This document shows, piece after piece, positions 38,001-54,128 of a stretch of 64,000 nt of DNA (positions are counted from its first letter, which is position 1; every line of letters starts with the position of its first letter). The stretch is from Patiria pectinifera (lineage: Eukaryota; Echinodermata; Asteroidea; Valvatida; Asterinidae), in assembly GCA_029964075.1 (NCBI GenBank), contig CM057142.1:5471770-5535769 (forward strand), read 5' to 3'. A model generated the notes under the pieces. It ran no database searches. It had not been told where the DNA came from and saw only the letters and a list, made by a program, of their open reading frames with translations. Position numbers and translations under genes: made by a program.

Positions 38001-41000
38001 TATAACCAGCCTAAACAAACATACATGTACATTATTTTTTTCTCATTTCAATACAAACTTACTTGTTATTTGTGCATGGGAATGACCATGTGCGCCACCG
38101 ATCTGATCCACCAGTAGCATGAAAACAAATCCCAGAACTAATGACACCCCTATAACATAGTGGAGCTCTGCTTCGTTGTGTGTACTGTGAGTGTGAGCGT
38201 GGGCTTCTCCATTTGCTTCGTGGGGGTTGCCATCGGCCGGCTGCCCTCCCGCCTGGTTTTCTGCCCCTACAGCTGGCGGGTTCACAACGTGAACGTGTGA
38301 TTCTGTAGTAAAGCACAGTCGACGATGAATGTAAAATTCAATATTGGGTTTTGCCGTTCACCGACGTAATTTCATAACCACTGTATTTTCAGTGCTGTCC
38401 AAAGGCTTGTGAGAAAAATACACAAGGTTACTCTGGTGGGACTCAAACCCATGACCTCCTACTTACTAGTGCAGACGTCTTACCACTTGACCACAGAGCT
38501 TGCCAGAGTTGGCTGGCTGGTCCAAATCAAATCAAACAGCACGCACCACAACCAATCACTATATGATGGGAATTTTCACATCGGGGAGATGCACATTCAT
38601 ATCAATACTGGGTTTAACGCTGACACTTTATACTTGGTGAACTTTGTAAAATAGATTTGAACAAGCAACCAGTCCTGTATTAAATCCAACACAAGTCCGT
38701 ACAAGTCATCACAAGTCCTCACAAACCATCCAGTCTCAAGTCAAGTCACAAGCTATTCAACTTTATCTTCAAGCAAACTTGAATCCTTGATCCTGATTGG
38801 TTGATCCATGACAATAATAGTGTGATACATGTATTATAATACCACAGTCTATGCTATTCCAAGATGCACGTGCCAATCCTGCTCCATGCACGTGTAATAG
38901 GATAACCGCTGAAAAGTTTGTGTACAGCGTCCGTGTTCCATCTTTACTATGTTTCAAGTTTGCTTGAAGACAAATTTGTTATCGCACGAGCGCGAGTGGA
39001 ACACGGAAAATGTAGTGGGTCTGCGTCCCACATGCCATACAGACACACTATATAATTCCATATTCCACTCACGCTCGTGGGATAACTAATAGAACTGTGT
39101 CAAAGGCATTTCTTTATAAATGTTCATACTTTTCACTTGTGACTAGACTTCGGTGTGTGACCAGACTTGTAATGGACTAAACTTTTAACAAACAAACAAA
39201 CAAACAAACAAACAAGGTACTGTACAGATGAAAAAAACAATCAGCTTTAGATTTTTTGTGTGTGGAAAATATCAAATTATCCAAGCTTCTGGATAGTTTG
39301 AATATTAAATGACAAGTGTACTTTATTTTGAAATTAGGAGTGTAACAACATCAGTTTTACACAATATGATATGTATCACTATCACGATACTGAAGCCATG
39401 ATGCAGGTTTCTTTTTTATTGTGAACTTAAGTTAGGCAATTGTGGCAGCTGTTTGACTTGTACAATTGTATTGTATTCATTTACAAGATGTCCGCATGCA
39501 GTGCATGCATATTGTTGGTTTAATTTTTAAGCCAGTGAACCCCTTAAGTTTTTTGAGGACGTGAATTTGCTACAGCTGCTTATTAGCTTTCAACTTTCAC
39601 TTTCAAACCAGTTTGAAATGGTTGATGTATTTTTCACAATTACGAGATGTATTACCAAATAAACCATGGAGGGAAACTGACTAGGCAAATGATAATCATT
39701 TTAAAGTTGAACAAAGAAATTGAACTCAGCTAGATTTGAGCTGGATAGCTCAGTCGGAAGAGCACCGCAATGGTAATCTGGAGGTTGCACGTTCAAATTC
39801 TGTTTTTGTTCAACTTTAAAAAGATGCATTAAACTATGTGTGGGGGAACACTTCTTTTTTTGGCCCTTGTAAAAAATATCATTTGCCACAAACATGCATA
39901 TATGAAGAGTGAAAGAAAAGTTGTTTTGAAATAAAAGTTGTTTTTAAACTGTTACTACTGGGAATTGATTCCTCAAAAAGGTGGAATCATGGTTCTTGGT
40001 TTGGAAATTCTGATTTGGAATTCTGACCTGGAATCACCCAACCTATTTCAATATTGAGGCAATTTTTGTCATACACAGTATTGAGTCCCAAATTTTTTGA
40101 GTAGTACTCTGAAGATCTATTGGCCAATGAGGGTGACAAACGAAATAGTCAGAAACAGGGCTCAGACAGAGACCATCAGCACACTGATTCGTCAGAGACG
40201 GTGGAGATGGATCGGACATGTGTTGCGCATGGACCCGAGCCAAAACCCACGCATTGCGCTGACCTGGGCACCTGAAGGGAAGAGGAGGAGAGGAAGACCA
40301 AAGGAGACATGGAGAAGGACTGTGGAGAGAGAGAGGATGGAAATGGGGTTTACATCATGGTCAGAGGCTGGCATTGCTGCGAGTGACCGGAGTGCTTGGC
40401 ATAAACGAGTGACTGGCCCAATTCTCCCAAAGGAGACACGGAATTAAGTCAAGTAAGTCAAGACTCGGTGTGCCAAATGCCATGCTTGTATGGCACAATC
40501 CCATGGACTACATGTATCTGCCGTACTATTTGTAAAGCATAATCAGTTTACTAGTGCAGTACTCACTCCAACAGATTCCAACAAAACATGCTGTTGGATT
40601 TTGAAGGTTTTTGGGGGTGGTTAGGATTGAACATTTCACTGACGATGGTTACCTTGTGTCGTTCCCGCAAATAATGTGTGTACTCCCTCTGGAATTATGA
40701 CAGCCAATGCTGTGCCAACAAGTAGACCTGCCCCCAGGACTGTTACAAATCTCATCTTGCTCTATGGGAGAAGGGAAAAAAAACCAGCATAAATATCACT
40801 TTAGATGCTGATAACGCAGACTGCAATCTGCAGCCCCTTGATTTACCCGATGGAGAATTTGTACCAATACAGACACAGAATTGTTGTACACAAATGGTAG
40901 TCCCTAGTAATAGAGAAAGCATTGCGCCAGCAATGTTACTATCATGGAAAATAATGGCACTTTTGTTGGAAAAAAAAAAGAAAAAAAAAGTGCTGTGGAC

Positions 41001-43434
41001 ATTTGGCCAGTGCCTGGTTCTCTTTAAGTAAATGTAAAAGAGGATTGCATACGACTCTTTCAATTCTAGACTAGTCTCTGGGGAAAAAAATTCATTTTTT
41101 CACTTCAGCTGGTGGAGTGAAATATGTACTGCAGCCGTGTAGGGCTAGGCCGGGGGGGGGGGGGGGCAGAACGTATGGGTGCCCCCAGCGGGAACGTGTC
41201 TCATTTGCTTCATCAACAGAAGCGCGCTCACATCGCAGGCAAGAAAACCCATTGTATTGTATACAACGCTATCCGTACACCACTCACACACGGAGCCTGC
41301 ACGCAGAGCTACATGTAGATAGCCACCGTAGCTACAGCGCGCCGGGCCCTACAACGCTGTCCGTACACACTCACACATGGAGCCGGCACACACAGCTAGA
41401 AAGCCACCGTAGCTACAGCGCGCCGGGTCCTACAACGCTATCCGTACACCACTCACACACGGAGCCTGCACACAGAGCTAGATAACCACCGTAGCTACAG
41501 CGCGCCAGGCCCTACAACGCTGTCCGTACACCACTCACGCACTTAGCCTGCACACAGAGCTAGATAGCCACCGTAGCTACAGCGCGCCGGGCCCTACAAC
41601 GCTGTCCGTACCCCACTCACACACGGAGCCTGCACACAGAGCTAGATAGCCACCGTAGCTACAGCGCGCCGGGCCCTACAACGCTATCCATACACCACTC
41701 ACACACAGAGCCTGCACACAGAGCTAGATAGCCACCGTAGCTCCAGCGCGCCGGGCCCTTCAACGCTATCCATACACCACTCACACACAGAGCCTGCACA
41801 CAGAGCTAGATTATAGCCACCGTAGCTACATCGCGCCGGGCCCTACAACGCTATCCGTACACCACTCACACACGGAGCCTGCACACAGAGCTAGATAGCC
41901 ACCGTAGCTACAGCGCACGGGCCCTGCATGCTTTTCAAAACGGCACGATAGCGTATTTAATACAATGCTCAACGGTCGACAACGCACATGGCTGTTTTCG
42001 AAACCTCGACTTCGTCTTCGGCTTCGCCTCTGAATTCTGAACCACTGAGATGCAAACCAAGCGGAATTGTTCAACTCTTGGTTTCGTATCAACCGACTGA
42101 TAGTTCTTGAAGCATTAACAGGTGCCAACATCTAACTGGAGTCCCCAGAGTTGCCTTTCAGCAGCCTTAACTTTTCTTAACCCGAAACGAAGCCAGAGTT
42201 TTGAAAAGGCCCATAGACAGTCACCACGCAAACACACCGAGCCAGTCGAGTTTCTAGTTACAAACAACGTTATCGCTTACTCGTTGAGCCAGGCACCAGA
42301 CTGTGATACAGCAATAAACGTTGGAGATAAACCATTTTGATTTTCTTCAAGTTCATAAATTTGGCCAAAAAACAGTCATGTTGAACTGAGCGACTCTGGA
42401 GTAAAGATGAGACCTCTGATATTCCTTTCAAGGAATAAAAACGAAACGTTAAAAAGGTGTTTCCATAAAAAAGATCATTTTTGTGCGGGGATTACAGGGG
42501 CGTAATTGATGGTGCTACTATACACGGTAGGTGCATTGATCACGTGTCGGCATACATTATTCACTGCACGATAGAAGTAACGAAGTAAATACAGATTCTT
42601 TTCTAGAATACCCCTAAAACTATGGGTCTTACACGTAAGACCCATAGTTCTAGGGGTAAGACTAATAGTAATAGTAATACACATTCGGTATAGAACAAGT
42701 GCTTGAATATATTAGTATTATCACCATTTTGCACACCCCTGTTTTATGAATGGTATAGGCACACAGACCATCGTTCGAGTTCTTCTCAGGGTAATCCTTA
42801 CCTTTAGGACTCTGTTCCTATATAAGGTTAAAAGACTCACCAAAAACAGCTGACTAAATTACACTCAAAAGTGACATTCTGATATTTCTTGACACATTTG
42901 AACAGTTGCCAATGACTTCTTCTGAATATCAGCAGGTTTAATTTTGTGGAAAGCGGGTAGGGCTTTGTTTTATGAGGGGGAAAAGGGGGTAAAAGACGAC
43001 AATGACAAACAGAAAATAGTTAGCAAGATAGCGAACTGCTAAAAAAGGTAGGAAAGTCACATTTTCTTTGACTAGGCCCCCTAACATGCCTAACAATAAA
43101 CATACATGTAACAATGAAATCTGAAGCAAAAAGACTGCATTACTCCTTTAGCCTGCAAAAGTCACTTAGGTACTGGACAGTCATCTGCAAAAGTAAGTTT
43201 TGAACAGAACTCGTAAAAAATAGGGGTGTCCTAAAGATAAGGATTACCCTTCTCAGACGCTCCACCCCCCTCCCCCCCCGGCTAGGCCATGTAGGCCTAC
43301 TGATGAAATTTGTACGATAAATTTTGTACACAACTTGCCTCAGAAAGCGGTACCGTAAGAGGTATTGTTCCAGCGATGTAGCATCCAATTAACATAGCAA
43401 AAGATAGCGCTAATATTCCCCAGGCGTCCTCCAT
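31840..43434 (-). CDS. SLC39A9: SLC39A9 (ZIP9) zinc transporter, complete, 7 exons, 326 aa
   Basis: ZIP9 is a ZIP-family transporter that moves zinc into the cytosol from the Golgi or outside the cell; in vertebrates it also acts as a membrane androgen receptor. Coding exons are 43434-43339, 40761-40653, 38302-38063, 36903-36826, 36162-36080, 33528-33394 and 32079-31840. All phases join and total 981 nt including TAA. The N-terminus [20 protein letters not shown] is the first membrane helix. Exon 3 holds the His-rich loop (HAHTHSTH) followed by [20 protein letters not shown]. Exons 4-5 form the metal-binding helices with LVVHAAADG and IMLHKAP. Exon 7 carries [20 protein letters not shown] and ends GHHH. 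Length is close to human ZIP9 (307 aa). Intron 1 uses a GC donor and exon 4 has a tandem acceptor. Identity is certain; exon boundaries are predicted by eye. Confidence 0.96.
33394..33528 (-). CDS. SLC39A9: SLC39A9 exon 6
   Basis: Encodes [40 protein letters not shown] and FGLSH in 45 codons; acceptor GAACACAG, donor CAC|GTAAGT. The true frame is masked by a longer open frame on the same strand. Confidence 0.93.
33569..34117. mobile_element. TTAA element with AGTCCATCATTTG ends, intact copy
   Basis: TTAA-AGGTACAGTCCATCATTTG at the left; the right end is the complement of TTAA-AGCCAGAGTCCATCATTTG. It sits in the SLC39A9 intron between exons 5 and 6, about 40 bases from exon 6. A second copy is at 59094-60101. 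Confidence 0.8.
34187..34622. repeat. Diverged 100-bp inverted repeat
   Basis: 34187-34285 (GAACCGAAAATGTCTGAAAT...ATTTGGTCACC) pairs with the complement of 34525-34622, spacer about 240 bases. TTTCAGACA/TGTCTGAAA motifs recur throughout. Probably an old foldback element. Confidence 0.65.
35690..36060. repeat. TTCGAATA-rich transposon-like remnant
   Basis: TGTACGAATATTTGA near the start and GAGTATTCGAATAGGCG near the end suggest a decayed inverted-repeat element. Boundaries are unclear; it lies immediately downstream of SLC39A9 exon 5 in transcript order. Confidence 0.35.
36080..36162 (-). CDS. SLC39A9: SLC39A9 exon 5 (metal-site helices)
   Basis: Encodes [20 protein letters not shown] then FIAIMLHK; acceptor CTCACCAG, donor AAG|GTAGAA, phase 0. 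Together with exon 4 it completes the HAAADG and LHKAP motifs that hold the transport-site ligands in ZIP proteins. Confidence 0.94.
36298..36450. mobile_element. Fragment of the ACCAGTTCGCG-ended MITE
   Basis: AACCAGTTCACATCGATGAC, TTTTGCGGTATTTAGAATG and GACCTGCTCGCAGCGAGCGA match the arms of the intact element at 52576-52820. Confidence 0.6.
36490..36618 (+). mobile_element. TTAA element, CCCTCC-ended family, partial
   Basis: Right half only: CAGTCACAGCCATCCTGC, AAACAGTCACTTGGTTG and the end GGAGGG-TTAA. Confidence 0.6.
36826..36903 (-). CDS. SLC39A9: SLC39A9 exon 4
   Basis: Encodes [20 protein letters not shown] followed by VVHAA; donor GCAG|GTATGT, phase 1. The acceptor reads CCCAGCAG, so splicing can occur at 36903 or at 36900, adding or dropping one residue in frame. 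Confidence 0.92.
36901..36906 (-). promoter_or_regulatory. NAGNAG tandem splice acceptor, SLC39A9 exon 4
   Basis: The reverse strand reads CCCAGCAG|GTG. Both AGs keep the frame; the split codon gives Thr-Gly-Glu or Ser-Glu. Confidence 0.7.
38063..38302 (-). CDS. SLC39A9: SLC39A9 exon 3 (His-rich loop)
   Basis: Acceptor TTTACTACAG; the split codon gives E, then [12 protein letters not shown], a low-complexity Gly/Ala/Gln stretch, [11 protein letters not shown], helix [20 protein letters not shown] and [12 protein letters not shown]. Donor ACAA|GTAAGT, phase 1. The extra Pro/Gly-rich stretch explains most of the length excess over the human protein. Confidence 0.95.
38425..38510 (-). mobile_element. 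tRNA-like SINE head
   Basis: Reverse strand: CTGTGGTCAAGTGGTAAGAC (A-box region), then GTCATGGGTTTGAGTCCCAC (B box) and CAGAGTAA. In SLC39A9 intron 2. Confidence 0.6.
39188..39215. repeat. (AACA)n microsatellite
   Basis: Seven perfect AACA units in SLC39A9 intron 2. Confidence 0.9.
39699..39821. mobile_element. Inverted repeat enclosing a decayed tRNA-like sequence
   Basis: TTTTAAAGTTGAACAAA and its complement TTTGTTCAACTTTAAAA flank GAGCTGGATAGCTCAGTCGG...GTTCAAATTC, a relative of 22237-22309. The right flank of that copy also carries a CAACTTTGAAAA relic. Confidence 0.7.
40097..40447 (+). pseudogene. Non-LTR retrotransposon ORF2 C-terminal fragment
   Basis: The open frame contains [32 protein letters not shown] and [10 protein letters not shown], the post-reverse-transcriptase tail common in LINE ORF2 proteins of marine animals. 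The RT domain is missing, the frame starts without ATG, and it lies in SLC39A9 intron 2. It is a 5'-truncated LINE copy in the opposite orientation to the host gene. Confidence 0.8.
40653..40761 (-). CDS. SLC39A9: SLC39A9 exon 2
   Basis: Acceptor CCCATAG precedes [20 protein letters not shown], then [16 protein letters not shown]; donor CAAG|GTAACC, phase 1. This is the second membrane helix with the ZIP-typical IPEG(V/I)H motif. Confidence 0.95.
41250..41932. repeat. 82-bp tandem repeat, about 8 units, in SLC39A9 intron 1
   Basis: Units start ACAACGCTATCCGTACACCA and include CACACGGAGCCTGCACACAG and CCACCGTAGCTACAGCGCGC; starts at 41263, 41351, 41432, 41514, 41597, 41678, 41760 and 41845. 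CpG-rich, unlike the surroundings. Confidence 0.95.
42609..42658. repeat. 24-bp near-perfect palindrome
   Basis: Arms built on AACTATGGGTCTTAC, one mismatch in 24 and a 2-base centre, in SLC39A9 intron 1. Confidence 0.9.
43337..43338 (-). promoter_or_regulatory. GC-type 5' splice site of SLC39A9 intron 1
   Basis: The donor reads GAG|GCAAGT. Protein alignment requires the exon to end at ...PLSE and exon 2 to begin SKMR, so no nearby GT donor fits. GC-AG introns are a known minor class that keep strong flanking consensus, as here. Confidence 0.8.
43339..43434 (-). CDS. SLC39A9: SLC39A9 exon 1
   Basis: Encodes residues 1-32, ending PLTVPLSE. The ATG at 43434-43432 is the only start that gives the family N-terminus. 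The exon ends GAG followed by GCAAGT, a GC donor in otherwise ideal context, and is phase 0. Confidence 0.93.
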
Positions 43435-44153: not shown

Positions 44154-44156
44154 ATG
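44154..44156 (+). CDS. ERH: ERH exon 1, tentative: start codon only
   Basis: Exon 2 opens right at codon 2 (AHTILLIQP), so exon 1 should end with ATG next to a GT donor. CTCAAAATG|GTACGG at 44154 is a suitable ATG-GT in the divergent promoter region. The donor is only moderate and no transcript is available to confirm it. Confidence 0.35.
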
Positions 44157-47100
44157 GTACGGTGTGAAACCCTTTTCAAGCTTTTGAAATGTTCGATAGG
44201 CGAGTTCGACCCACACAATCACACTTTTTTCACAGGCTTGTTTTATGTTGGACCACCATGCGATATGCATGGCCAGATGGCATTGCATTCTGGGTAGTGT
44301 CGATTTACAGACTAAGTACAATTTTATAAACAAAATGATTTTCACTCAACATTGGGCACTGCATAAATGGAAATCAGCCCTGGGGCAATGGTATATATAG
44401 ATGCAAATGTACATTGTAGGTTTTGATGCTTTAATTATCATTTGTTTAATTTTCGTTTGAGAACGTGCGCACGTTGCATGCAAGCGTTACCTGCACAGAT
44501 TATGGAGGATCGAAGATATTTGATTTTCAGAAGGCATTATTAATTAGGCCTACATATTTTGCCCACATGGATGAGTTTACGCAGGAAATTAACATATATA
44601 TTTTCGTGTAGCTAATTTTCGTGTTGTGTTTTGTCATCTTCGTCGCTGTTCCACACAAAACAATTCAACACCCTGCACTCTATGGTCTACCAACAATTTT
44701 TTTGTTGGTTTTAAACATTGCCAACTAGTCGGATAACTTATGTGAGTCAAATGACCTAAGGCCAAAAAAAAAAATATTCGGTCTCTGGTCAGACCAAAGT
44801 TCCGGAATTGACGCGGCCACGCGGCTTTTTTTTTTCATTTATTTTTTTTCTTTTTTTCTTCAAGCTTGGATTGTACAGACAAGGTGGGGTACTATTTTGC
44901 TTTTTTGGTGTCCTCATGTACATTGGTGTCCTCCATAATTTGCCATGGTGCTTTTGATCATTTGCCTTGGTGCAATTTCCCATTCCTTGGTGCTCTTTGG
45001 TAAAAAAAAATATGAGGAGGTGCGGAAATAGAGGGCGCTCTTGGAGCTACCGCGGAACATTTTGGAGAAAAAAAAATCTTGACGCGCATGATTAAAATCG
45101 ACCCGCGCGCTGACCAGAAACCGCTTTATTATTTTTTTTTGGCCTAATTTAGGATTTTTTCTCTTAATAGGAACAGGGCCCGCAACTTCATAATCAGCAA
45201 TAATTAATTGCCCCTAATTTTCGTAAATGTCATACATACTCGGTTTTTGCCCTTATCTTTTGTTCTCACTAGTCACTAGCCAATCGGACTAGTGAAACAG
45301 ACTCTAGGTCTCATCCATGGACCTTTTCACTAGTCTGCAACAGTTTTTAAATTTTTGCACCAGAATGCCATTTATAAACAACCATGTTATTTACAATAAT
45401 TTTGACTTGCCAGGCGGACTACTTAGGGATTGGTTTTGACTAGTCCACCACTGGTTTTAGTTTTACTCGCATTTGGTGAGTGGACTACCACTAAGGTCAA
45501 ACTCTGCATACTGCCTTGATTTTGCTGAAATAACACTAATGCAAACTGTAACGCAATAGACTATGGAAGCCTATATTTATGGCAGTGAAACATGGCATTG
45601 CAGATGTAAGGTTTTTAATTAGCAGTTTGATCACGGGGGATTGTTGCTCAATAATAATGATTAGGATCCAGGCGAGTAATTCTGAAGTGCGTGCCAGTGA
45701 CCTAATTTGATCATAAATGTTTGTGGGGGTTTTAGCGGGTTTGTTTTTGTTTGTCCCCAAATCTTCCTCTTACTGTGTTTAATCATGGAAAACCTTACTT
45801 TTCATTGTCTTTCCTTCTTATTCATGACTCAAACCGAACAATTTATTTTTCAGGCACACACCATTCTCCTCATCCAGCCAGGGCCAGCTGAGACGAGAAC
45901 GTACTCGGATTATGACTCCGTTAAAGACTGCATGGAAGGTGAGAGGATGTTATGCCCAACTGTAGTAATGACCCCAATTATAGTTGAGATTGTCCCAACT
46001 GGGACAACGATTTAGTTCAGGCATAACAGATATCCACATATCTGAGGCAGAAACTTTGTATACTGACACTGTGCTTGCATGTACATTGTGCCCAGCTTTT
46101 ATACGTAAAACTACTTCATGATTAGTCATGATTTACTGACATTAATACACATGTTCGTTCAATGTATTTGGTTTAGGCAACTGTGTATAAACTTCAGGAC
46201 CTAATCCATTTGAATCCCTGGAAATTTATGAGTTTTTTTTTTTTCCCTCTCAATTGGGTTCAGGAGTGTGCAAGATCTATGAAGAACACCTGAAGCGATG
46301 CAACCCCAACAGCCCGTCCATCACATACGACATCGGCCACTTGTTCCAATTCATTGATGACCTGAAAGACCTCAGCTGTCTAGTGTAAGTGTCCCTATCC
46401 ATGTCTTCTCTCTTTTTCACCTATTGTTTGATTCGAGGGATTATATTTAGAAATTAAGTTACAACATGAGGTAAATAGACATGAATCACAAGGCAGAGTC
46501 TGCCCTTACCTCTGCAGTTTTAAAAGATTTGGCAAAGTAGTAAGAGGCTGGAGACTAGGACCAATTTTAGGAACTTGTTCAACACAAAACTTTGCTTACC
46601 AAAATAGGTTACCAGGCAGTGTGACTGGCGACTATTTTTCAGCCATTTTTTGCACTCTACATAGCATCATCTAGGCCTATCCCTTGATTTTATTTTACTC
46701 AGCATTTCTTAGAAATTTGGCCTAGCAAAATGTATTCCTTGAAATGTTTGAAAAATGTTTGGAGCACTTTCCAGATGTACAGATTTGTCTTTGAATGGGA
46801 TTCCTTGATTTGTTGCCAATAAATCATCAAGTAAATAAACAATTTGAAGCATTCATGTGTTTCAGTTGAATGAATTCAAAATCTTATAGGACCTGTCTGT
46901 GGTCTTTTACAACCTCACAGATTTTGCAGATTGGAAAAAAGCCATTGACAAGAAATATAATAGTTTGGTATCCTGAGAAATATTCACATATATGTAAATG
47001 TTAAAAGTTGATAAAGTTGTATAAAAGTAACCATTTCTAAGAGTACATGTACTGAGGGAGTCAGGCAGTGTTTCAACTACATGAAAAGTTATTTTGTAAA

Positions 47101-48807
47101 TGCAACAGACTGCAACATTGTAATATTATGTTGCATAATGTTGCATTTAGCAGTCAACTTAAATTGCTTCACCCATGTTGCCCTTGGATGCTTTGTTGCA
47201 TTTAGCATGGTAACTGCTAATAGTGCCATGGCTGGTACAACGGAAGCCACTGTTGCATTTTGTTGCATTTAGCATGGTAACTGCTCATAGTGCCAAGGCT
47301 GGTAAACAGAATCCACCGTGGCATCTTGTTGCATTCAGCATGGTAACTTCTCATAGTGCCATGGCTGGTACAACAGAATCCACTGTGGCATCCTGTTGCA
47401 TTTAGCAGGGTAACTGCTCATAGTGCCCTGGCTGGTACAACAGAATCCACCTTGGCATCTTGTTGCATTCAGCATACATGTAGTATCTGCTCATAGTGCC
47501 ATGGCTGGTACAACAGAATCCACTGTGGCATCTTGTTGCATTTAGCAGGGTAACTGCTCATAGTGCCATGGCTGGTACAACAGAATCAACTGTGGCATCT
47601 TGTTGCATTTAGCAGGGTACCTGGAAAAAAAGACTCATGGGAATTAGGGTTAGACCATGCAAAAACTTTGACTGTTTTTACAGGGAGCCCCTGTCTTTTT
47701 GAAAATCAGTAACATACATGAAATTTCAAGAACAACCTGGGCACAGCAGTTCATAAGATTCATTCACGTATCACAAGATGTTTTTTTTTTTTTAATGAGA
47801 GACATGGTTTTTTTCCTACTCATTTGCTGCTGTTCTTTCTACCTTGCTACCCATCCCCATAACCTCTAGTTCTGTGTCCACCAAAAATATAGTTACTAAC
47901 TAGTCTCTAACCTTAAATCCTAACACTTCGGGTATTTTTTTTATTAAAATATGTAGCACTGCAAGAACACAAAGCCTATCCTTTGACGGCACATTTAATG
48001 AGGTCATTAACCCTAACAATCCTTCATCCAGTCAAACTCCAACACCAGGGTTTGTTGGAATCTGTTAGGATGAGTACTGCACTAGTACATACTGATTATG
48101 CTTTACATGGGGTTAGGCAAACCACAAATGAACATACATGTAGTCCAACTGTTGTATGTATACAGTTTACCATGTGGTGTTGGAATTTGCAAGGATGCAG
48201 AAGGTTCCTAGCAAATCACCCTAGGGGGTTGGGGTTATTCCCTATTCAAATAGCTTATATTATCCAGTGTAAGATTTTGTTGATGGTCATGACGTGTTTT
48301 GGTAGACTATGTGAACGACTACACAATATATATTTATAACGGCTAAAGAAACAAATCAAAATATGAAGGTTATATTTAAATGCATTGAAAAAAGGAATGA
48401 ATTTAATCAATTGGAAATAAAAATGTTACTGGCAATAACAATATAACTGACTTACTTCAATAACTAACTTGCATCAGCTGTTTATGGTTTATGTGGCTGC
48501 AACTTCAAGTCAAAAGCCCCTACCTGTGTTTTTTGTCAAATTGTTATTTTATTTTTCAAATTCAAGAGAGAAAATAAAGCAGTTTCTGCTTTTTGGACAT
48601 TCCAATACCAGAGGGCGATTTGTCTTTTGGGTGACACCCCCCCCCCCTGAAAAAAAGTGACTCGGTGAGCACACTTCTTACTGACTGCTCTGTGGCTGTT
48701 CCCATTCCAACAGGTTGGATAAGAAGACCATGGCGTACCTTCCTTGCAACAAGGACTGGGTTAAAGAGAAGATCTATGTTCTCTTGCGGCGGCAAGCCCT
48801 CAAATGA
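44154..48807 (+). CDS. ERH: ERH, enhancer of rudimentary homologue, about 100 aa
   Basis: ERH is a small, very conserved nuclear homodimer linked to mRNA splicing and to microRNA processing (DGCR8/Microprocessor partner in vertebrates). Coding exons are 44154-44156 (tentative, ATG only), 45854-45938, 46264-46384 and 48714-48807; phases join exactly. The product reads (M)[63 protein letters not shown], then either the 48714-48807 tail ([19 protein letters not shown]) or the alternative tail at 51125-51218. Human ERH is 104 aa. The gene is transcribed away from SLC39A9. A 67-bp minisatellite lies in the intron before the first terminal exon. Identity is certain; the ATG exon is the weak point. 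Confidence 0.93.
44757..45147. mobile_element. GTCTCTGGTCAG-ended MITE in ERH intron 1
   Basis: TAA-GGCC(A)n-TATTCGGTCTCTGGTCAG at the left and GACCAGAAACC...GGCC-TAA at the right. The interior matches 60509-60895 in opposite orientation (GGTGTCCTCATGTACATTGG, GAGGGCGCTCTTGGAGC). Confidence 0.85.
45854..45938 (+). CDS. ERH: ERH exon 2
   Basis: Acceptor TTATTTTTCAG; encodes [20 protein letters not shown] then DSVKDCME; donor GAAG|GTGAGA, phase 1. This is the first beta strand and start of helix 1 of the ERH fold. Confidence 0.95.
46264..46384 (+). CDS. ERH: ERH exon 3
   Basis: Acceptor ATTGGGTTCAG after a long T tract; encodes [40 protein letters not shown]; donor GT|GTAAGT, phase 2. It contains the invariant [11 protein letters not shown] segment. 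Confidence 0.97.
47150..47622. repeat. 67-bp minisatellite in ERH intron 3
   Basis: About seven units with CATAGTGCCATGGCTGGTAC and CTTGTTGCATTTAGCA (starts near 47221, 47288, 47354, 47421, 47494, 47561). The repeat makes the frames seen here; they are not genes. Confidence 0.95.
48007..48240. mobile_element. CCCTAA-ended element, decayed
   Basis: Starts TTAACCCTAACAATCC and ends CCTAGGGGGTTGGGGTTATT; internal CCAACACCAGGGTTTGTTGG palindrome. Confidence 0.45.
48714..48807 (+). CDS. ERH: ERH terminal exon, copy A
   Basis: Acceptor CCATTCCAACAG; completes Val and encodes [33 protein letters not shown]. It matches the canonical C-terminal strand and helix of ERH ([15 protein letters not shown]). 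A possible polyadenylation signal ATTAAA follows at 49058. Confidence 0.95.
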
Positions 48808-49057
48808 TGAACCATAATGACCATTAAGCACGGGTGAGGGCCTTTTCGTAATAGCAGTCATTTTTTAGGGAAGCACAAGTCATAGATTCGGGGAACCGTT
48901 CAGAATTTGGGGAGTACAGTCATAATGACGAGACTGTTTTATGCACTGCATGTCAATTATGTTTGCAGTCCAAATTTGGATCTCTCTTGATTAGTCGAAG
49001 GCCATGTTGAAGCTGTTCTTGCATGTATGCAAATAGTGATTAACGCAAAACAATGAC

Positions 49058-49063
49058 ATTAAA
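49058..49063 (+). terminator. Candidate polyadenylation signal after ERH copy A
   Basis: ATTAAA about 250 bases past the copy A stop codon. It would allow a transcript to end before copy B. No transcript support. Confidence 0.3.
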
Positions 49064-49418
49064 TACTGCTTTTAGTGCTTAATCTTGGCAAGACTTCTAG
49101 ATATAACGCTAAGATAAGTATTTTATTTCATTGTTTCATGAGTTTTGGCTCCACCTTGAATCTGATCGTCTCGTGGTCAACACAGATACACAAAGATATT
49201 TTATGACTTTGTGCATTTGTTGACCAGACTGTTTCCAGATTTAACAATTTGTATCAACTAAGAAACAATCATCATGTCCACCACTTTGCTGTCCCTGCTT
49301 TTTGCACCTGCTTCAGCATTCTTTCTGCTTTTGCTTCTATCATGCTTTGGTCTGTGTTACTTGTGATTTTTGTTTGTTGTGACTTTGGCATTAGCCTGAG
49401 AATGATGATGCATTTTGT

Positions 49419-49886
49419 TTAACCCTCGTTTTGTTGGATCAGTCACAGACAGTCAAAAAATCAATCCTGTTCCCCTGCCATGCCTTTTACACAGGCTAGT
49501 CATGAACAGTCATATCATATTTCAATGGAGAAGTTGCGCAAACGAATAGTGTACGCGCGCGTGTTGGTTCATGGGCTGAATCACGCGCTAATGTCTTTCA
49601 CAGACATTTTGTGTGCGTGACGTATTCACTTCGGTACTCCATAGTCACTGTGACTAGTCTAATTCCACCAACCGACAAAAGTAGGTAACTGGTAGGCACA
49701 GCTGGCTTATCAGTCTCCTGCAGTCAATGCATAGCTGTATCAGATTTCATAACAATCACAGCCAGTCAATCCTGCTTTAGGAAGGCAGGGAGCACTGTCA
49801 GCACTCAACTGTTAAAAACAGTCACTTGATTTATTTTGACTGCTAGGCTGGCCTTGTTGAAATTGTCAGCCAGAGAGGAAGGTTGA
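49419..49886 (+). mobile_element. TTAA element, CCCTCC-ended family, with an insertion
   Basis: Same order of blocks as 6217-6568, but about 120 bases (49526-49641, TGGAGAAGTTGCG to GGTACTCCA, rich in CGCG) interrupt it between TTTCAA and CACTGTGACTAG. Confidence 0.7.
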
Positions 49887-51124
49887 ATCGTTACGCTTTA
49901 CAGATGATAAAGTATATGGCTCATTTGTCTCTAATTGGCCAGAGGAACTGAACTTGACAGGAAACCAATCCATCAAGCATACATAATACACAAAATCTCT
50001 CATTAGTTGTTCACGCTGTTTGCAATCTGCATGCTGCTATAAGTGTTGGTTTATTTTTGGCAGTAATGTTGTAGTCATTTTAGCACCAATAGTTAACATG
50101 TTTTGTGTCTAGAATGTGGTAAGAAACAATTGAAATGTTTTTAGTTTCTACTGGTTACTATATCCTAAGAACATAAACCTCAGGATAATGACACCACAAT
50201 ATTGAGCAGTTGAGCATATCCACTTTAACATTTCCCAATGATACCCATATTGAACAGTCTAGTGCACTGTAGCACATACATGTAGTGTCCCCGGTGACCC
50301 AAGTACAATATATACATTTTGCACCATACGTTCTTATTAGTTAAAGTGAAATTGGAAAGTATGTGAATTTATTCAAAAGCACTTGTATGTTCTTCACACT
50401 TTCACATAATGTTACTTTGTGCTATTCTTTGAATGGTGATAAGCCACTTAATATGGGCTGTGTGCACGAACAACAGGGGGCGCTTTTTTACCACAACGAG
50501 AGCCCCATGGACAGGACACATGGTGTGCGCATACTGGTTCATGCACATATTAGCACGAAATACGCACAACAAATTTTATTCTGAATGTGCACAAAGCGCG
50601 CGTCTTCGCGTGAGCGTCAGGCGCCGTTGTCCACAATGCATTCCAATGTCTCTCCCAGTGGTCTCCCCCAACTCTCCCTTTCTTACCGTTGAGGGGGTAC
50701 TTGTGCACGGAGCCCATATCACGAGTTCTTTTGCATTATGCACTGTTGTGGCAAGATTTTATGTTACCAAGTTTTTATGCTTTCTGCTTTCTTATAATAC
50801 TGATGTGTACATCTCTGTGCATAATTTCTCTCATGTGAGTTTGAGATGTACAGGAAATATCCATGTTGTTGGGTGTGAAATGACACAGAAGTTGTTTTTG
50901 ATTCAGAAGTCATCATGATGCACCCTTTCACTGATACTTAGACGAAAGCTATTTCTACTGCGGTGATGCCTGGAGCGTCCCAACTCCAATCACAATTTTT
51001 ATTTTCATTGTTTGTTTAAGTTCAATTCTCAAAAATTGGTGACTGAACAACAGGTCACAAATTCTGCTCCGCTTTGCTTACAAATTGGATTCTTTCTTTT
51101 TTCTCTTCAATTTTTGTGTATCAG

Positions 51125-51218
51125 ATTTGACAGGAAGACAATGTCGTATCGTCCCCACAACAAAGACTTCTTCAAGGAGCAAATCTACAAGCAGCTGAAG
51201 GACCAGGCATCGAGATAA
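51125..51218 (+). CDS. ERH: ERH alternative terminal exon, copy B
   Basis: A second copy of the last coding exon, 2.3 kb downstream of copy A. It has the same length (94 nt), the same entry phase and a strong acceptor (long pyrimidine tract, GTATCAG). It encodes V, then FDRKTMSYRPHNKDFFKEQI, YKQLKDQASR, TAA. By eye 16 of 30 residues equal copy A, including DxKTM, Y-P-NKD, KE-IY and QA. It keeps an open frame without frameshift. It would yield an ERH isoform with a different C-terminal helix; use in mRNA is inferred, not shown. Confidence 0.8.
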
Positions 51219-52820: not shown

Positions 52821-54128
52821 AAAAAAAAAAAACTGAGGAAATTCAAGCAATTGTGTAGAAATGAAAAGTCATCCAAGGCAGAACAAATAAAACCAAGTTC
52901 GCAACAAATAAAACCACGTTCGCAACGTCAGGCCACATTAATTTTAAGATTCAAATAAAACCATCTGAAATCTGGACGTCAAGGAAAACTGTTGCCAGAA
53001 GATGTCTAAAATATCGCAATTTTGGTTTTCTTCAAAACTTACTGGAATTTAATCTGTTGCTTATTGTACATGTTTGGGATGTTTCATAATATTCAATACC
53101 TTGCTATTTTCAACTTGTGTTAATTTTTAATAAATAAAATTCCAACCATACCCAGTGCAAAACAGTTCATAGTTTTACACCTTGGAATTGTGGTTTGCTA
53201 AAAAAAAAGATTCTAAACCAAGTCACCAACCAAGAAAACATTGTCGTATCTCAAATCAGTAATGGTTGATAAATAATATAGTTGATCAAAATTGGTACTT
53301 TGTTGGCCAAGTAATTTTATTTGGGGATTTTGTGAGGTTTTCATGTTGTGGCAAATTTCTACCAGGAGAAAGGTATTTTGTTTTTCCCTGTCTTGTATTT
53401 AATTAGCTTGTGCTGTACTTTTTTATTTACATTCATTGCTTTTCAACATTGTTAAATTTCTTTTACGTTTTTGTCTCTGTACATATTTCCACATTTCTTT
53501 TCAGTGTTTAAGTAGAATAAAATTTTGATCTTTTTTGAGAAAAAATAAGAAGTGTTAACGGAGTAAGTCATTGTTGGTTTTATGTAATGTTGATTCAAAC
53601 TAAAGAGAAATTGTGAAACAGTTTTACTAGGTCAAATTTGTGATGATTTGTGATGCTCATTTTAATCACAAGGCTAAATTGTACATATTTAATATGTATA
53701 GCATAGCATTGTGATTAAAATGTGCATTGCATTTCATGAGCAATACTGACATTCTCAAATTGTGGTTGATTTTTTTTTTATCAATAATACATCCATCATA
53801 ATCCATGGCTGCAAACATACTACATAGTAACTCCACATTTATTCAAAACATTAAAAAAGTTAACAGGCAGATACGTCAATACAATGCATTTGTCTCAATA
53901 ACTGAGGTAAAACGTGTAAATGATCCAGCTTATGTTTGTATGCTTGCAAATAATCTGGAGGAACAATAACATAATAGGCAGAAAATGAGGTTGGCGAAAG
54001 GACTTGTGTAAGTCTAATGAGAAATAGCCTCTCGCAGCGCCCTCCTGCGGCGGAGCTGTGTGGCTAGCTAGCTAGCTGTGTTGCAACGTTCATCAACTTC
54101 GGTCTTCATTTTTGCAGAAAGTTTGAAG
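52821..54128. other. AT-rich spacer between ERH and CHURC1
   Basis: Likely ERH 3' end plus CHURC1 promoter. A (GCTA)n stretch at 54063-54078 precedes the CHURC1 start by about 50 bases. No other gene seen. Confidence 0.5.
53129..53138 (+). terminator. Candidate polyadenylation signal after ERH copy B
   Basis: Overlapping AATAAATAAA in an AT-rich stretch, with another AATAAA at 53516, between ERH copy B and CHURC1. Position suggests the end of the long ERH transcript; unproven. Confidence 0.3.

Follow-up and report, generated by a model that had tools for sequence, protein, structure and literature searches.

A starfish ERH gene with two tandem last coding exons that may encode alternative C-terminal ends

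Background

Can ERH, a scaffold protein of little-changing sequence, be made with two alternative C-terminal ends from one gene? The question is raised by a 64,000-nucleotide stretch of DNA from the starfish Patiria pectinifera (the window, in what follows), in which the third exon of ERH is followed by two similar candidates for the fourth. The ERH dimer has been connected with the microRNA Microprocessor, with splicing, with mRNA export and with heterochromatin (PMC10605862), and a natural second version of its C-terminal part would amount to evolution's own experiment on the protein, in a kind of animal that is used in developmental biology. The original prediction for this locus started from ERH as normally a single-form protein; the gene is single-copy in most genomes, with exceptions such as C. 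elegans and P. patens, which each have two (PMC10605862).

Results

The window contains one ERH gene, on the plus strand, and this gene has two alternative final exons behind its exon 3, here called A and B. The features to which we refer are these:

44154..44156, plus strand: probable ERH coding exon 1, the start codon (ATG/GTACGG), with a weak-looking donor
45854..45938, plus strand: ERH exon 2, 28 residues and the first base of a Gly codon (acceptor tttttcag, donor gtgaga)
46264..46384, plus strand: ERH exon 3, from Gly to the first two bases of the Val-71-equivalent codon
48714..48807, plus strand: terminal exon A, 94 nt, canonical-like end, stop TGA
49058..49063, plus strand: ATTAAA, possible 3' end of isoform A
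51125..51218, plus strand: terminal exon B, 94 nt, diverged end, stop TAA
51935, 51978 and 52332, plus strand: ATTAAA downstream of B
52886, 52907, 52954 and 53516, plus strand: AATAAA downstream of B
53129..53138, plus strand: AATAAATAAA, possible poly(A) signal of isoform B

Human ERH has introns after Met (phase 0), in Gly-31 (phase 1) and in Val-71 (phase 2) (PMC10605862). In the starfish gene the intron between exons 2 and 3 lies in phase 1 in the Gly-31-equivalent codon, and exon 3 ends in ...CTA GT/gtaagt, splitting the Val-71 codon in phase 2, such that introns 2 and 3 both match in position and phase; intron 1 would match as well. Since the human intron 1 lies directly 3' of the Met codon, the start codon is probably that at 44154-44156, which was picked by position and context from the five ATG/GT[AG] sites between 42001 and 45854. 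In an alignment with human ERH, exons 1-3 agree at 54 of 71 positions; joined to A or to B, they give an ERH of 100 amino acids in either case.

Two 94-nt last exons, entered in phase 2 and closed by in-frame stops, had been predicted behind exon 3, and coordinates, length, phase and stops are all as claimed. The third base of the split Val codon is supplied as G by A and as A by B, giving Val either way, and 30 codons and a stop follow in each. Both exons are on the plus strand and preceded by an acceptor, and they agree in phase and length, with B 2.3 kb further downstream; homologous, equal in acceptor phase and each provided with its own stop, they have the make-up of tandem alternative last exons. 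Scored with approximate weights, the acceptors rank 47th (A), 120th (B), 234th (exon 2) and 43rd (exon 3) among 3536 plus-strand AGs. Branch-point-like motifs occur at -30 of A (CTGAC) and at -45 of B (CTTAC), and a long pyrimidine tract precedes the acceptor of B.

Both isoforms belong to the ERH family. As joined exons without the Met-Ala start, they match Pfam ER (PF01133) over positions 2-98 of the 98 in the profile, with 144.9 bits for A and 141.6 bits for B against a cut-off of 25; scored alone, exon A reaches 27.9 bits and exon B 24.0 bits, slightly below that cut-off. NCBIfam assigns isoform B to no family. The residues H3, L7, Q9, D66 and Y79, which are invariant in the ERH comparison of a review (PMC10605862), are all present in both, and Tyr-79 and Pro-81 (human numbering), whose equivalents are among the dimer contacts of S. 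pombe Erh1 (PMC6335422), are kept in A and B; the numbering offsets are our own, anchored on named residues such as Asp-66 and Tyr-79. The likeness to known ERH thus extends to a full-length profile match, a size of about 100 amino acids, human introns 2 and 3 and the dimer residues. The difference is the presence of two alternative C-terminal exons; the word isoform does not occur in the review (PMC10605862). In the open-licence literature we found no report of ERH isoforms, and none of enhancer of rudimentary in starfish or of ERH exons in sea urchin; the titles found for enhancer of rudimentary with echinoderm were all unrelated.

When the 31-residue B peptide was searched in six frames against the 613.5-Mb genome, two scored candidates were obtained and both were matches, B itself (E 2.9e-14) and A (E 0.006); the 31-residue A peptide likewise gave two matches from two candidates across the whole genome, A (E 3.4e-14) and B (E 0.005). 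Copy B is more than a chance match. An exon-4 profile built from A, B and human ERH gave 78.5 bits for A and 74.3 for B in the window, with the next best at 6.4 bits; because A and B are themselves inside the profile, the informative part is the gap to the third match alone, and by this measure the window holds no third exon-4 copy. The motif D-x-KTM is common to A and B and absent in human ERH, the comparison sequence, as had been noted. It had been taken to suggest a lineage-specific duplication; on our reading it would mark only a resemblance of A and B where human differs, and no more.

A and B are identical at 54 of 91 nucleotides, 16 of 30 residues and 13 of 30 third codon positions, and 6 of the 16 codons for shared residues are the same. 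Their dN is 0.37 and dS is not computable, silent sites being saturated, which suggests that the duplication is old. The flanks are unrelated, with scores of 22 upstream and 16 downstream against maxima of 28 and 27 respectively in 200 shuffles. Despite the saturated silent sites and the unrelated flanks, copy B has retained its frame, its phase, a stop and 16 of the 30 residues, and it is no recent artefact.

A pairwise codon model gave an omega of 0.062-0.108 over four settings. A pairwise omega of 1 is rejected (2ΔlnL 12.2-13.3), an omega of 0.5 more weakly (2ΔlnL 5.3-5.8) and an omega of 0.3 is not rejected (2ΔlnL 2.1-2.8). With the A branch fixed at 0.02-0.1, omega on the B branch is about 0.23, and the comparison with 1 yields a 2ΔlnL of 5.1-5.3, for which our chi-square reading of a 2ΔlnL of about 5 is a p of about 0.02. 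Thirty codons carry limited power, and the case for coding constraint on the B branch alone is therefore moderate. The idea of a second coding last exon is supported, with signs of constraint in its frame, phase and stop and in the low pairwise omega.

Exon 4 corresponds to residues 72-101 in human numbering and, going by the order of elements given for the protein (PMC10605862), takes in strand beta-4 and helix alpha-3. A and B differ at 14 of 30 positions, among them Val-93, Leu-94 and Arg-97 of A, which are Lys, Gln and Asp in B, and Trp-86, a residue classed as conserved or conservatively replaced (PMC10605862), which is Phe in B. The expectation that B would change surface charge holds for helix alpha-3, where the net charge of residues 83-99 goes from +3 in A to +1 in B, but barely for the exon as a whole (+5 against +4). 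Many substitutions in ERH have been reported without change in behaviour (PMC10605862).

At residue 72, A carries Leu whereas B carries Phe. At the equivalent position, Tyr74 of S. pombe Erh1 contacts Mmi1 (PMC6335422) and Phe73 of worm ERH-2 contacts TOST-1 (PMC8458385). Phe-72 therefore gives B a partner-contacting aromatic that is absent from A. The notion that B is no more than a worn version of A, which we had considered, is weakened by this residue.

Discussion

The explanation that we favour, with a probability of about 0.82, is that an old tandem duplication of the last exon provides for two ERH isoforms, which would have the dimer core in common and differ in helix alpha-3. Duplication of a terminal exon is, in itself, a familiar event. 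In proposing how the two ends would come to be expressed, we suppose that each of the two junctions is in use. The canonical-like isoform would arise when exon 3 is joined to A and a 3' end is formed before B, perhaps at the ATTAAA at 49058; isoform B would arise when A is skipped, 46384 is joined to 51125 and the transcript ends at a more distal poly(A) site, possibly around 53.1 kb. Whether the transcript is cleaved early, with A as its last exon, or continues into B would decide the outcome, and the layout is consistent with such a choice. The ATTAAA at 49058 is the sole representative of four hexamer types between A and B, and the 50 bases after it are not notably U- or GU-rich; we regard it as a weak candidate for the poly(A) signal of isoform A. 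Eight non-overlapping poly(A)-type hexamers follow B up to 53600, AATAAATAAA among them.

The first alternative to be weighed is that B is a decaying relic that no longer enters the mRNA. B is indeed the more diverged copy, with 13 of 30 residues as in human ERH against 19 of 30 in A, the model of a neutral B is only moderately worse, and a short B branch might have kept the pattern by drift. In simulations of free drift from A (20,000 runs per rate), the share of runs that retained at least 16 residues and had no stop was 45% for 0.2 substitutions per site, 24% for 0.3 and 7.8% for 0.4, falling to 2.0% for 0.5 and 0.015% for 0.75; the runs modelled substitutions alone, and real drift would produce indels as well. 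Drift is excluded by these rates solely if B's own branch is long. The intact frame, length, acceptor, phase and stop, in the face of saturated silent sites between A and B, nevertheless speak against decay, and we consider a relic improbable; B may, at most, have been lost from the mRNA recently.

B could also be nothing but 3' untranslated sequence of an A-type mRNA, with a regulatory, noncoding role. The weak poly(A)-like hexamer stands alone before B, hence read-through transcripts are possible, and there is something of a parallel in Drosophila, where SXL switches e(r) polyadenylation and the longer, mainly ovarian transcript is reported to be untranslated (PMC10605862). However, constraint at the level of amino acids is unexpected in untranslated sequence, and the 2300 bases after A have a single GTRAGT donor-like site, at 50833; we think this very improbable. 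Less probable still is a second ERH gene that ends in B and has its remaining exons unassembled or unrecognised. The assembly is in 1020 contigs and may be incomplete, but exon 3 as DNA has a single match in the 613.5-Mb genome (one of one candidate), and the whole-genome Pfam ER search at E<=0.001 returned ERH exons 2 and 3 of this locus alone (two of seven scored candidates), neither exon-4 copy being among its matches. Nor does the window hold any further exon 2- or 3-like stretch above 7.6 bits, and the position of B, 2.3 kb behind A on the same strand and in matching phase, again argues against a separate gene. An assembly artefact, by merged haplotypes or mis-assembly, has no supporting point that we could find and is the least probable of these alternatives, given silent saturation and unrelated flanks unlike those of allelic copies and a locus on a 54.9-Mb contig.

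Under the favoured explanation of two isoforms from one gene, both proteins are predicted to fold as the ERH beta-sandwich dimer, with AA, AB and BB combinations possible, and B would show a different alpha-3 surface. Altered Microprocessor partners had been put forward as a consequence. A review places DGCR8 in the same ERH groove as PID-3 (PMC10605862), and this groove, as used in other species, would be unaltered in isoform B. For CIZ1 the binding site is a cleft to which alpha-1, alpha-2, alpha-3 and a loop contribute, and the residues critical for its binding lie just before and within that loop (PMC10605862). Owing to the groove contacts in other species and the position of the CIZ1-critical residues, a Microprocessor change is not our first guess; going by these published contacts, a change is more to be expected at surfaces containing alpha-3 than in DGCR8 binding. 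Such surfaces, or the pocket at residue 72, would be the better candidates for a partner site, although none is established, and we find the alpha-3 partner, as a part of our explanation taken alone, doubtful.

The locus has analogues in other organisms, all of them partial. C. elegans, with ERH-1 and ERH-2, and P. patens, with two ERH genes, resemble the starfish in having two ERH versions per organism, and the ERH-2 of the worm, a diverged version, functions in the PICS/PETISCO complex; however, these versions are separate genes, while the starfish pair are exons of a single gene whose products would differ only after Val-71. The e(r) switch by SXL in Drosophila shares with our case the alternative 3' ends of an ERH mRNA, but there it is the transcript end that changes, whereas in the starfish it would be the coding end. 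Tandem-duplicated mutually exclusive exons, as a general class, are likewise homologous tandem exons of the same phase; here, by contrast, the exons are terminal, each has its own stop, and their usage is putative.

A bolder suggestion, to which we would give somewhat less than even odds, is that ERH function has been split here by splicing and not by gene duplication. AA, AB and BB dimers would be formed, the B end serving separate, perhaps germline or developmental, partners, which would match, at the level of exons, the division between ERH-1 and ERH-2 in the worm and would have been kept since an ancient duplication. An apparently constrained second C-terminal part that differs at alpha-3 could tell apart the roles of ERH that require this helix and those that rest on the shared dimer core.

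Additional observations

Pattern searches for relatives gave 88 and 19 matches in prokaryote contigs, none of them a relative by tblastn, and 54 in viral contigs, none a relative; neither result has a bearing on conservation. COX1 had no match in a search of the 613.5-Mb genome. A neuropeptide gene marks the genome as that of Patiria miniata or a very close species, hence as an echinoderm one, in line with the original prediction. The pattern of the starfish peptide S1 matched the same genome once, within an open reading frame in which AFHSALPF, GYHTGLPF and PAGSPVFHSALTY are encoded as well, each preceding GKR; these three peptides have been reported for Patiria miniata (PMC3594158).

The neighbourhood of ERH

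Upstream of ERH, a plus-strand gene, the window carries a second gene and two repetitive or repeat-like features:

43434 down to 40630, minus strand: neighbour gene, two readable exons
41262-41925: tandem array, 82-bp unit, 8 copies, 90% matches
40085-40447: open frame of 120 aa

The neighbour gene and ERH are arranged head-to-head, with about 720 bp between the start of the former and the inferred start codon of the latter. The two readable exons look like those of the zinc transporter ZIP9/SLC39A9, and the Pfam Zip model matches the gene with an E-value of only 0.0095, which falls short of the cut-off. SLC39A9 also adjoins ERH in human, and the two genes would then be an old pair with a common promoter. 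The 120-aa frame, for which a search of Pfam found no match, looks like the last part of a reverse transcriptase from a non-LTR retrotransposon. A further tandem array lies within ERH itself:

47193-47623: 67-bp unit, 6.4 copies, in the intron between exon 3 and exon A (the first of two alternative last exons)

The 3' end of isoform B

At a possible 3' end of isoform B, the predicted protein form ending in the other last exon, TTTTAAT overlaps the possible poly(A) signal AATAAATAAA (window 53125-53138) and is similar to a cytoplasmic polyadenylation element. On the plus strand of the window, TTTTAT and TTTTAAT have a joint frequency of about 1.5 per kb, and so the presence of TTTTAAT here may be due to chance.

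A SALMFamide locus elsewhere in the genome

L007 (G000:C16:974749-977774), outside the window: L-type SALMFamide precursor gene, peptides matching published ones of Patiria miniata

Three peptides encoded at this locus, AFHSALPF and GYHTGLPF among them, are reported for P. miniata (PMC3594158).
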